From the NCBI RefSeq assembly GCF_003023845.1, contig NZ_PYFT01000001.1, forward strand, positions 6,200,001 through 6,264,000: a stretch of 64,000 bases of DNA, given 5' to 3'. The position numbers were made by a program, and so were the translations under genes. This DNA is from Adhaeribacter arboris. Its GTDB lineage: Bacteria > Bacteroidota > Bacteroidia > Cytophagales > Hymenobacteraceae. Positions 30,088-38,108 of this stretch are shown here, piece by piece (position 1 is the stretch's first letter; each line of letters opens with the position of its first letter). Below the pieces are notes generated by a model. It saw nothing but the letters and a program-made list of their open reading frames with translations. It did no database searches and was not told where the DNA came from.

Positions 30088-30096
30088 GTTAAATTA

Positions 30097-30200
30097 ATTT
30101 ATATTTCCCCAAGTCGGGATAGGATTTGGCACCTTTCAACAAAGGGTTGATGGTTGCCAGAGGGTCAGGGAGCCTATTCTCTCGCCTCTTCTTTATAAAT
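30097..30200 (-). ncRNA. SAM-I (S-box) riboswitch in the metY leader
   Basis: Read on the minus strand: P1 (30200-30194 with 30103-30097, ATTTATA/TATAAAT), then AAGAGGCGAGAG and CTCCCTGACCCTCTGGCAACC (P2 and internal loop split across 30190-30140), P3 around ATCAACCC...GGGTTGAT-like sequence, the conserved AAAGGTGCCAAATCC joining region, and P4 (TCCC-GACTT-GGGGA). The order and the conserved GGCAACC and GGTGCCAAATCC blocks match the S-box. It senses S-adenosylmethionine and should lower metY expression. Whether it acts on transcription, or on translation of the following small frame, is not clear. Confidence 0.85.
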
Positions 30201-30231
30201 CAATTCTGTTCAGGAACAGGGTTTGATGCTG

Positions 30232-35052: not shown

Positions 35053-36804
35053 ATGCTTAGAACCCATACTTGTGGCGAATTAAGATTAGAAAATGTAGGG
35101 CAGGCAGTTACCCTTACGGGTTGGGTACAACGTACCCGCGACAAAGGCGGGATGCTTTGGATTGATTTGCGCGACCGGTATGGCATTACGCAGTTAAAAC
35201 TCGAAGAAGGAAGTACATCCGCCGAAACCATCCATCAAGCCCGTAACTTAGGTCGCGAATTTGTGATTAAAGCCACTGGTACCGTAATTGAGCGAATATC
35301 TAAAAACGATAAATTATCAACCGGCGACATTGAAATACAGTTGCAGGATTTAGCTGTTCTTAACCCGGCTAAGCTACCGCCTTTTTTAATTGAAGACGAT
35401 ACCGATGGCGGCGATGATTTGCGCATGAAATACCGTTACCTGGATTTACGGCGCAACAGCGTACGCAAAAACCTGGAACTACGCCACCGGATGATGCAGC
35501 AAACCCGAGCTTATCTGGATAGTTTGCAGTTTATTGAAGTAGAAACTCCGGTGCTGATTAAGTCAACGCCCGAAGGCGCGCGCGATTTTGTGGTGCCCAG
35601 CCGGATGAACCCGGGTGAGTTTTATGCTTTGCCGCAATCGCCGCAAACGTTTAAGCAATTGCTCATGGTATCGGGCTTCGATAAATATTTTCAGATTGTA
35701 AAATGTTTTCGCGACGAAGATTTACGGGCTGACCGCCAGCCTGAGTTTACGCAGATAGACTGTGAGCTTTCTTTTGTGAGCCAGGAAGATATTTTAAATA
35801 CTTTTGAAGGCTTGGTAAAGCATCTGTTTAAAACCGTGCGAGGAATAAAAATATCTGAGTTGCCCCGCATGACTTACGCCGATGCCATGCAATATTACGG
35901 CAACGATAAACCCGATACGCGCTTTGACATGCGTTTTGTGGAGATGAATAGCTTCGTACAAAACAAAGGTTTTAAGGTTTTCGACGAAGCCGAACTTATA
36001 ATTGGCATAAACGTTACCGGAGCCGCCTCTTATACCCGCAAGCAACTCGACGAACTAACCGAATTTGTAAAACGGCCGCAACTGGGAGCTACTGGTCTTA
36101 TTTACGCCCGCGTAGAAGTGGATGGTACGGTAAAATCGTCGGTAGATAAATTTTTTAACCAGGAGAACTTGCAGCAATGGGTGCAGGCCTTTGCGGCTAA
36201 GCCCGGTGATTTATTGTTAGTAATTGCCGGCCCCGCCGATAAAACCCGCAAAGCTCTTTCGGAATTGCGCTTAGAAATGGGAGAACGCCTGGGTTTGCGC
36301 GACAAGAATACTTTTGCGCCCTTGTGGGTGCTGGATTTTCCGTTGCTGGAGTACAACGAAGAAGAAAAACGTTATTTTGCCATGCACCATCCGTTTACCT
36401 CGCCCAAGCAAGAAGATTTTAGCTTGTTGGAAACCAATCCGGGAGCCGTTCGGGCCAACGCGTACGATATGGTAATAAACGGGGTAGAAGTGGGAGGTGG
36501 CTCTATCCGGATACACGAGCGACCCTTACAGGAACGAATGTTTACATTATTAGGCTTTACGGAAGAAGAAGCCCGGGAGCAGTTTGGGTTTTTGTTAAAT
36601 GCCTTTGAATTCGGAGCGCCGCCGCACGGGGGGATTGCCTTTGGTTTCGATCGTTTGTGTTCCTTGTTTGGCGGAGCCGACTCGATTCGCGATTTTATTG
36701 CCTTCCCGAAAAATAATTCCGGCCGCGATACCATGATTGATTCGCCGTCGCCCATTGCCGAAACCCAACTGAATGAGCTAAATATCCTGCTGAAAAAAAG
36801 CTAA
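35053..36804 (+). CDS. aspS: Aspartyl-tRNA synthetase
   Basis: Charges tRNA-Asp. The 583-aa protein is of bacterial type: N-terminal OB-fold anticodon domain (about 1-110, [24 protein letters not shown] as landmark), class II motif 2 ([16 protein letters not shown]), the bacterial GAD insertion (about 275-400) and motif 3 (GIAFGFDRL near residue 535). FVVPSR and [11 protein letters not shown] are also canonical. The start ATG at 35053 gives the conserved N-terminus LRTHTCGEL. Whether it is discriminating or also charges tRNA-Asn is not settled by the sequence. Confidence 0.96.
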
Positions 36805-36919: not shown

Positions 36920-37384
36920 TTAAAGTAGTTGTACGGGACGGCTGATACTTTCTTCAAGGGAAATGAAAGTTTCGGTTCGTTGAATACCCGGAATTTTCTG
37001 GATTTTATCGGTTAATACGTTTTTCAGGTGCATGGTATCTTTGCAGATAAGTTTCGCAAACATGCTGTAAATACCCGTGGTATAATTTACGCTAATTACC
37101 TCTGGTATCCGACGGAGTTGCTCTAACACCTCGTTATACATAGAGCTTTTACGCAAGTAAATTCCCAAAAAAGCATTTACATCGTAGCCCAAATTACCAT
37201 AATTTAACTTTAATTGGGTACCGGTTACGATTCCCATTTGTTCCATTTTTTTCATCCGGACGTGGACAGTACCACCCGAAACAAACACTTCTTTTCCTAC
37301 ATCTGCATACGCCATTTTAGCGTCTTCCATCAGCAGAGAGAGGATTTTCAGATCCGTATTGTCAATTTCTAAATTTTTGAGCAT
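36920..37384 (-). CDS. Lrp/AsnC-family transcriptional regulator
   Basis: A 154-aa regulator with an N-terminal winged helix-turn-helix (about 5-60, ILSLLMEDAKMAYADVGKEV and GGTVHVRMKKMEQMGIV as landmarks) and a C-terminal RAM/AsnC ligand-binding domain (about 70-150). Such proteins sense amino acids and often control amino-acid metabolism; the target is not known. It is divergent from the tRNA-like RNA gene; CAAAAGTA at 37414-37421 is its probable -7 element (TACTTTTG). The two promoters lie within about 90 bases, so the regulator could affect the RNA gene. Confidence 0.92.
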   Translation of the reverse strand: MLKNLEIDNTDLKILSLLMEDAKMAYADVGKEVFVSGGTVHVRMKKMEQMGIVTGTQLKLNYGNLGYDVNAFLGIYLRKSSMYNEVLEQLRRIPEVISVNYTTGIYSMFAKLICKDTMHLKNVLTDKIQKIPGIQRTETFISLEESISRPVQLL

Positions 37385-37469: not shown

Positions 37470-37501
37470 TTTGAAGTAATTAATTTTATCTCTTATATTT
37501 G
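37470..37501 (+). promoter_or_regulatory. Consensus promoter of the tRNA-like RNA
   Basis: TTTG (37470-37473), exactly 20 bases, TATATTTG (37494-37501): a perfect TTTG-N20-TAnnTTTG. The predicted start is around 37508, about 10 bases before the tRNA-like fold. Confidence 0.78.
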
Positions 37502-37517
37502 ATAAATAAAAACACAC

Positions 37518-37646
37518 TGTAGGGTGTTGAAACTGGCAGACATGCCCTCCTCTCTCGGGGGTGGAGATAAATAGGATAAAGCGTTTTGACCTCTAAGTTA
37601 ATTCTTGCCTAACTACTCCGTGGAGGTTCGATTCCTTCCCCTACAG
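37518..37646 (+). ncRNA. Class II tRNA-like RNA with anticodon CUC and a ~60-nt variable arm
   Basis: No protein fits here. The sequence folds like a tRNA: acceptor TGTAGGG (37518-37524) with CCCTACA (37639-37645); U8, A14, R15 and G18-G19 in a Leu-like D-loop (CTGGCAGA); a weak D-stem with one U-U mismatch; a 5-bp anticodon stem CCCTC/GGGGG (37545-37549, 37557-37561) with loop CTCTCTC and anticodon CUC (37552-37554); a 60-nt variable region (37562-37621) whose ends pair (GGAG/CTCC and TAGG/CCTA); and a T-arm GGAGG-TTCGATT-CCTTC (37622-37638). The discriminator is G; CCA is not encoded. U at position 37 and U1-A72 are unusual. The RNA has its own promoter and terminator. Function not known. 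Confidence 0.7.
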
Positions 37647-37648
37647 CT

Positions 37649-37684
37649 AAAAAGCCTCTTCGTTTTAAACGGAGAGGCTTTTTT
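37649..37684 (+). terminator. Intrinsic terminator of the tRNA-like RNA
   Basis: AAAAAGCCTCT (37649-37659) pairs with AGAGGCTTTTTT (37673-37684), with further pairing inside (CGTT/AAACG), then T-runs. It begins 3 bases after the folded RNA. Confidence 0.85.
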
Positions 37685-38108
37685 GTTTCTTGTTAAGTAT
37701 ACTTTAGAACTAAATAATCGATTCTCTTTATTAAATTAAAAAGCAAGATTGAATCAGTGATTTATTTACAAACCTGGGTTATATCTTCAGACACAATTAC
37801 TCTTATGTTGGGAAAGTCTAAATTTGTCCTAGTCGATGATGCTTGTTTCATCCTTAAACCCTAGAGTTTCCTTCTTATAAAAATAGGAAACCGGATATGG
37901 TTATCCTTTTCTCTTCTGCTGAATGTTAAAGCACCGAAATCTTATTAAGACTTTTATTGCAGGAAACTTTTTTATTTAAAGTTCAATGGCTTATTCTTAA
38001 AAAATTTTTGAACAAGGAGTAAGATTATCAGTATAATTAATATATTTAAGTACTGTTCTACTCTATTATTTTAAGTGCCTTTATAGTAAATTTTATTTTG
38101 GTTCTACC
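37685..38108. other. Non-coding interval upstream of the HTCS gene
   Basis: About 420 A/T-rich bases with no gene, repeat or clear promoter seen. Confidence 0.45.

Follow-up and report, generated by a model that had tools for sequence, protein, structure and literature searches.

The window analysed here, a stretch of 64,000 nucleotides from the genome of Adhaeribacter arboris, carries a free-standing class II tRNA-like RNA gene with the anticodon CUC and a greatly enlarged variable arm, which raises the question of what such a molecule is for. A sequence-only reading had considered it neither a normal tRNA nor an obviously decayed one and had offered two explanations: an odd tRNA that would put Leu or Ser at GAG codons, or a tRNA mimic with a regulatory role.

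The tRNA-like RNA and its family

The gene, its parts and its immediate neighbours are as follows, with the coordinates of the window.

35053..36804, + strand: aspS, aspartate-tRNA ligase, beyond the regulator (NF001750, 808.9 bits)
36920..37384, − strand: divergent Lrp-family regulator, closest to AsnC (NF008384 AsnC, 164.5 bits)
37470..37501, + strand: Bacteroidota-type promoter TTTG-N20-TATATTTG, read directly (TTTG at 37470-37473, TATATTTG at 37494-37501)
37518..37647, + strand: class II tRNA-like RNA, 130 nt, U1 to G73-C74, free-standing (covariance model and covariation)
37518..37524, + strand: acceptor stem, 5' strand UGUAGGG (U1-A72, G2-C71 and U3-A70 nearly invariant in the family)
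37527..37543, + strand: D arm, Leu-like, with a 3-bp stem and GG in the loop (alignments; own tRNA-Leu compared)
37545..37561, + strand: anticodon arm CCCUC-CUCUCUC-GGGGG (5-bp stem covaries; loop CUCUCUC at 37550-37556)
37552..37554, + strand: anticodon position, CUC in the window copy, most commonly GUC in the family
37562..37620, + strand: enlarged variable region, 59 nt (V stem UGGAG/CUCCG around a conserved GGAUAAA...CUAAC motif)
37622..37638, + strand: T arm GGAGG-UUCGAUU-CCUUC (alignments)
37639..37647, + strand: acceptor 3' strand CCCUACA, discriminator G73 and C74 (family 3' end)
about 37650..37684, + strand: intrinsic terminator (sequence reading)

Most of the layout that had been read from the letters stands: direct reading confirms the promoter (37470-37501), whose form TTTG-N20-TATATTTG we take to be the Bacteroidota-type consensus, the 5-bp anticodon stem around CTCTCTC (37545-37561) and the terminator just after the RNA (about 37650-37684), and the variable region of roughly 60 nt with pairing ends measures 59 nt, closed by the V stem UGGAG/CUCCG. 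The tRNA fold with its tertiary-contact bases is likewise upheld, as the cloverleaf helices covary in homologues; in the window RNA the acceptor stem has 7 bp (UGUAGGG/CCCUACA), U8, A14, G18-G19 and U33 are present, and the D stem has three pairs, the outer of which (U10/U25) is non-standard. C75-A76 is presumably added post-transcriptionally. The terminator sequence (37649-37687) recurs elsewhere in the genome at G000:C1:6172217-6172258, with 87% identity over 38 bases, and the window also holds a SAM riboswitch at 30096-30201 on the − strand (76 bits).

A blastn search with the RNA gave matches, some of them partial, in 29 of 59 genomes, counting the query's own. The class II cloverleaf was written onto an alignment of 30 copies (A1) and 25 pairs were counted: 98.9% of cells are paired, 11 pairs are changed on both sides compared with 4.5 in shuffles, and pairing falls to 54-62% when the partner columns are slid. 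Scanning the GTDB collection with a sequence pattern returned at least 80 named loci and at least 120 stretches; fitting the 80 named loci among the matches listed to our covariance model R1 gave a second alignment (A2) of 98 copies in 96 distinct rows, in which 99.3% of cells are paired, 13 changes are double-sided (7.7 in shuffles) and none of 500 shuffles reaches the observed value on any measure. A1 is the more independent test, as the rows of A2 had been aligned to R1. Covariation is seen in all five cloverleaf helices in both, so that the compensatory changes to be looked for in related genomes are present (11 against 4.5 in A1, 13 against 7.7 in A2). The RNA is a real and widely conserved family of the Cytophagales, the Chitinophagales and some other Bacteroidota, and the view that it is not an obvious decayed tRNA holds: it is a conserved, covarying tRNA-like RNA outside the normal set.

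With R1, members of the family score mostly 78-134 bits, whereas apparently ordinary class II tRNAs mostly stay under 65 bits. The raw R1 tallies (241/241 genomes of the order, 384/395 of a phylum sample) include such ordinary class II tRNAs, and for this reason E < 1e-20 was used as the threshold for the RNA. By hand count at this threshold it occurs in 168 of 241 genomes of the order and in 40 of 395 of the phylum sample, the latter belonging to its own order, to three families of its class (f23, f24 and f27) and to f67 of another class. Hosts among the matches listed in the pattern scan include Hymenobacter, Pontibacter, Spirosoma, Dyadobacter, Cyclobacterium, Algoriphagus, Chitinophaga and Saprospiraceae, among others, together with two MAGs titled Flavobacteriales and one titled Ignavibacteriales; no title outside this host group is found among the matches listed.

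Several of the 98 copies that R1 finds in the 80 named loci listed are in tandem, and five contigs (G222:C9, G159:C1, G147:C159, G217:C9 and G120:C1) have four or five listed copies within ∼1 kb, often tens of bases apart. Such clustering suggests high dosage. When A1 and A2 are pooled (127 copies, A2 from the matches listed, near-duplicates kept), 66 copies have TAnnTTTG in the 70 nt upstream, where Markov resamples give a mean of 7; a TTTG stands 18-21 nt before this motif in 28 of the same 127 copies.

General tRNA and RNA models do not recover the family. ARAGORN reports no tRNA in the window, and Rfam 15 gives nothing over the RNA at the gathering score; at E ≤ 10 there are weak matches alone, which were discarded as far below their cut-offs and mostly carried by the terminator. 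The Rfam tRNA model (RF00005) has 49 matches at E ≤ 10 in the organism's own genome, 42 of them above the cut-off, and the RNA is not among them. Seventeen of the 80 named loci listed were compared whole with Rfam, giving one ordinary tRNA and no match over the RNA, and one long-armed member gave nothing at E ≤ 5. A clear match to a known non-tRNA Rfam family, which the sequence-only reading had said to look out for, was thus not found. The RNA has the cloverleaf and D/T elbow bases of a canonical elongator tRNA and scores 127.6 bits with R1, compared with 56.7 bits for the listed ordinary tRNA of the same genome; folded as a single sequence it is not unusual (z = −0.17), and the full cloverleaf is not recovered.

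The RNAalifold consensus of 28 long-armed relatives (A3) adds, beyond the V stem, a helix of CAG/CUG type, the internal loop GGAYAAA.../...CUAAC and a covarying distal helix; a GACCAC element is invariant in this alignment, and the D stem is not recovered in this consensus. The window's arm seems to be reduced in comparison: its V stem encloses the conserved motif and what may be a smaller version of the distal hairpin of relatives. One genome, G011, carries a 77-nt armless version (L275, G011:C23:54000-57000) that keeps U1-A72, G73 and the loop CUAUCUC; the arm can therefore be lost.

Anticodon loop and acceptor end

The pattern used in the GTDB scan itself demands U35-C36-U37-C38 and rules out A33 (96 of the 98 A2 copies fit it), and loop invariance was therefore recounted on 71 distinct copies that blastn or the covariance model had detected with no loop pattern. 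U35, C36 and C38 are present in all 71. Position 37 is U in 70 and C in one, position 32 is C in 60 and U in 11, position 33 is U in 67, G in three and C in one, and position 34 is G in 45, C in 13, A in nine and U in four; when these are pooled with the pattern-found copies among the matches listed, G34 occurs in 123 of 163. The CUC anticodon is thus correct for the window copy but does not describe the family, in which it is restricted to some close relatives and G34 is commonest.

A decoding tRNA keeps its anticodon and U33 and has a purine at position 37. The RNA has no conserved anticodon, its U33 is replaceable and its position 37 is U, and we therefore consider that it is probably not used as a codon reader. 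The suggestion of Leu or Ser at GAG codons is not supported: the anticodon is not conserved, position 33 is replaced in 4 of 71 copies, U37 is found in 70 of 71 and the discriminator is G73. Of the other suggestion, a tRNA mimic with a regulatory role, what is supported is a role outside translation, which is probable given the varying position 34, the replaceable U33 and U37 in 70 of 71. An excerpt of PMC9976931 gives G73 as an antideterminant for LeuRS; in place of the A73 of tRNA-Leu, G73 is found in 98/98 A2 copies from the matches listed. G73 and the long arm agree with tRNA-Ser and by themselves would permit charging by SerRS, yet the RNA combines them with a Leu-like D arm and with U1-A72 at the top of the acceptor. 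The associations with GatCAB, AsnB and AsnC described below point to Asp/Asn rather than Leu/Ser charging.

The same excerpt (PMC9976931) lists G73, G34, U35, C36 and C38 as five strong AspRS determinants. All five are present in most members of the family, namely those with G34; the window copy has C34. The excerpt also describes G1-C72 of bacterial tRNA-Asp as crucial for identity, and here the RNA differs in having U1-A72, the pair recognized by bacterial GatCAB according to an excerpt of PMC4206432. Among the distinct A2 rows (matches listed) U1-A72 is present in 95/96, G2-C71 in 96/96 and U3-A70 in 94/96, and all 98 A2 copies end in G73-C74, with the 3' end ACAGC in 96 and UCAGC in two; the row ends of A1 were chosen by this 3'-end motif and are not independent of it. 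We compared 31 distinct tRNA sequences from 30 loci of the organism's own genome, a set that does not include tRNA-Glu. U1-A72 is found in those for Asn and Gln (one Met also starts with U), and as a rule these sequences encode a C directly after the discriminator; by this standard the GC end of the RNA resembles an ordinary tRNA end of this genome. The genome also has a normal tRNA-Asp(GUC).

Association with GatCAB, asparagine synthetases and an AsnC-like regulator

The Asp determinants and the U1-A72 pair led us to infer a link with GatCAB, which was then tested by searching for gatB. This gene was found in 55 of 59 relatives and then in 43 of 69 genomes picked by RNA status, 61 of which had a gatB status not yet known. 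The association table holds 80 genomes chosen with their RNA status known, 39 from the 59 relatives and 41 from the 69; 49 have the RNA and 31 lack it, as assigned with R1 at E < 1e-20 (with blastn for G001, G003, G030 and G049), and G011 with its armless copy is counted as lacking it. gatB is present in 49/49 genomes with the RNA and in 11/31 without it, although these and the other table counts, like the Fisher p values, ignore shared ancestry. Within the 45 genomes that have GlnRS the figures are 26/26 and 0/19, and within those that lack it 23/23 and 11/12; GlnRS itself, taken as a control, is present in 26/49 and 19/31, which is not significant. Both RNA states occur inside family f23 and inside family f24, so the match between RNA and gatB is not only one between distant clades, and it suggests that the RNA and GatCAB were gained or lost together more than once. 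Outside the table, 20 genomes comprise two with both RNA and gatB, six of the same class with neither and 12 of other classes with gatB alone.

AsnRS is present in all 80 table genomes. Classical AsnB is found in 0/49 genomes with the RNA compared with 19/31 without it (18 above the curated cut-off and G312 just below). These calls use NF006949; TIGR01536 was rejected as too broad, since EPS-type paralogues pass it, and AsnB-like TIGR01536 proteins above the cut-off are present in 45 of the 49 genomes with the RNA. The remaining four (G041, G046, G405 and G519) have GatB, AsnRS and GlnRS but neither AsnA nor a TIGR01536 protein above the cut-off. We had expected genomes with the RNA to lack AsnA, and this failed: AsnA occurs in 7/49 (G045 just below the cut-off) and in 6/31 without the RNA. 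Both AsnA and classical AsnB are absent from 11 genomes without the RNA. In one RNA-less genome the classical asnB match (G289:C1:285799-287433) has two in-frame stops. G052 was dropped as an exception, its protein being a fragment at a contig edge (266.7 against 499). An excerpt of PMC4206432 describes genera, some of them Bacteroidetes, with AsnRS, GlnRS and GatCAB and no asparagine synthetase, and proposes that they make asparagine on tRNA-Asn.

The genome of the window has no GlnRS above the cut-off, no AsnA and no classical AsnB, although AsnB-like paralogues are present; with no GlnRS at that level, GatCAB there has another job. Loops were read in 38 of the 49 table genomes with the RNA: position 34 is G in 20/20 of those with GlnRS, and in the 18 without GlnRS it is C in seven, A in six and G in five. 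AsnA accompanies C34 in 5/7, A34 in 0/6 and G34 in 2/25 genomes, counts confounded by ancestry. It is as if the asparagine role had been relaxed where AsnA entered; against this stands G011, whose armless copy has A34 and whose genome has AsnA.

The divergent regulator of the window scores 164.5 bits with NF008384 (AsnC), below the curated cut-off of 227, with the next family at 63.9 bits. Its sole PDB match at E ≤ 1e-20 is entry 2cg4 (1.9e-34), which we take to be E. coli AsnC. NF008384 is the family with the best E value for all 30 proteins scanned (that of the window and 29 of the 48 found). An AsnC-like gene lies divergently 124-253 nt upstream of the RNA in 49 of the 80 named loci listed and in another orientation in none; of the other 31, 24 show none and seven have short flanks. 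It is the only protein family that recurs in most of the named loci listed (48/80, the next reaching 14). aspS was dropped as a conserved neighbour, being absent from the 25 most recurrent families of these 80 loci. By tblastn no AsnC-like gene is found at 12 asnB regions of genomes without the RNA, at seven asnA regions (five in genomes with the RNA) or in 3 kb around the RNA of G011. Among the named loci listed, a SufB-like gene behind the AsnC-like gene in 13 and an acyl-CoA-synthetase-like gene downstream of the RNA in 14 were named by eye.

A possible role in asparagine synthesis

We think it rather probable, from sequence and gene association, that this non-decoding RNA is aspartylated by AspRS, amidated by GatCAB and supplies asparagine under the control of AsnC. 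The AsnC-like gene and the RNA gene are adjacent and share a divergent promoter region, from which the regulator may control the RNA. The structure and the encoded C74 are consistent with a transcript that would be matured like a tRNA and gain a CCA end. AspRS would load aspartate by way of G34-U35-C36, C38 and G73, which most members carry; GatCAB, with which the RNA is associated, would read U1-A72 and turn Asp-RNA into Asn-RNA, and the asparagine would then be released or passed on. Exclusion from the ribosome would come from U37, from the loose constraint on position 33 and from the giant arm. In members with A34 or C34, including the window's family, the role may be altered. Against the asparagine reading, the large variable arm may be a hindrance to AspRS, and the AsnB-like proteins noted in 45 of 49 genomes could be other makers of asparagine. 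Also on this side are C34 in the window copy, U1-A72 where bacterial tRNA-Asp has G1-C72, AsnA in 7/49 genomes with the RNA, the 11 genomes that lack the RNA, AsnA and classical AsnB, the 12 genomes of other classes with gatB and no RNA, and the 31 of 80 named loci listed in which no AsnC-like neighbour was found. The fuller picture seems to us evenly balanced: a whole lineage that makes asparagine on a dedicated RNA coenzyme with an Asp-type loop and a GatCAB-type end, which stays off the ribosome and is under the control of AsnC at the position that an asparagine synthetase gene occupies in E. coli, the giant structured arm maybe assembling AspRS and GatCAB.

UCUC is more constant than AspRS would require, U37 not being among the listed determinants, the V domain is structured and a regulator gene adjoins, all of which would suit a regulatory RNA that tunes asparagine metabolism, either as a charge-state sensor or decoy for AspRS/GatCAB or by pairing of the UCUC loop with targets. 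We regard this as unlikely, since a decoy leaves unexplained both why classical AsnB is missing where the RNA is present and the restriction of GatCAB to genomes with the RNA among the GlnRS-containing genomes tested. Non-decoding charged tRNAs are known as donors, and this together with the GatCAB association would fit an RNA that delivers Asp or Asn to some non-ribosomal transferase in need of Asn-RNA, one that modifies lipids or the cell wall or tags proteins; the AsnB anticorrelation would again go unexplained, no family except the AsnC-like one exceeds 14 of the 80 named loci among the matches listed, no such transferase was recognized there by eye, and we judge the idea clearly improbable.

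Charging with Glu and amidation to Gln fits best the members with C34 or U34, such as that of the window: U35-C36 is compatible with Glu, the organism's tRNA-Gln shares UGU/ACA, and loops other than G34 are confined to genomes without GlnRS among the 38 read. It is nevertheless very improbable in view of G34 in all 20 GlnRS-containing genomes read, the AsnC neighbour and the lack of A37, a listed Glu determinant in the excerpt of PMC9976931. Finally, an ordinary or recoding elongator tRNA for GAN codons (Leu or Ser at GAG, or Asp/Glu) has the intact cloverleaf and elbow bases on its side, but is scarcely credible given the variation at positions 34 and 33, U37, the giant arm and the normal tRNA-Asp(GUC) in the same genome.

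No description of such an RNA was found in searches of the open-access (PMC) literature. The asparagine reading is closest to tRNA-dependent asparagine synthesis, in which a non-discriminating AspRS and GatCAB act on tRNA-Asn (Bdellovibrio, Deinococcus and Thermus in the excerpt of PMC4206432): both would combine an Asp-accepting tRNA bearing U1-A72 with GatCAB, in genomes that can also hold AsnRS and GlnRS, but the acceptor proposed here is a molecule apart, a tRNA-like RNA whose loop is of the Asp type. AspRS need not then be non-discriminating, because the acceptor would not be tRNA-Asn. The E. coli genes asnC and asnA are transcribed divergently; the arrangement here is alike in that an AsnC-family gene diverges from a proposed asparagine-making gene, and unlike in that its partner is an RNA gene rather than an enzyme gene. 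Most members share G34, U35, C36, C38 and G73 with tRNA-Asp(GUC) (loop CUGUCUC compared with CUGUCAC in the organism's own tRNA-Asp) and differ from it in U37, U1-A72, the Leu-like D arm and the giant class II arm. The long arm and the tRNA-Leu-like D arm recall tRNA-Ser, tRNA-Leu, tRNA-Sec and the allo-tRNAs (excerpt of PMC7609411), from which the 59-nt V region, the conserved internal domain in relatives and the Asp-type loop set the RNA apart. The Bacillus cereus pseudo-tRNA tRNA-Other is also a tRNA-like element outside translation; it has been suggested to belong to a larger regulatory RNA (excerpt of PMC3399842), whereas the RNA of the window represents a stand-alone conserved family.

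The variable arm is a new RNA domain, of which one relative (G011) is naturally free. If the asparagine reading is true, a tRNA-like RNA would be maintained for metabolism and not for decoding, a new job for a tRNA-like molecule. It would account for the retention of GatCAB in many Bacteroidota despite GlnRS and AsnRS, and would close the gap in their asparagine synthesis with an acceptor alternative to the tRNA-Asn proposed in the excerpt of PMC4206432.
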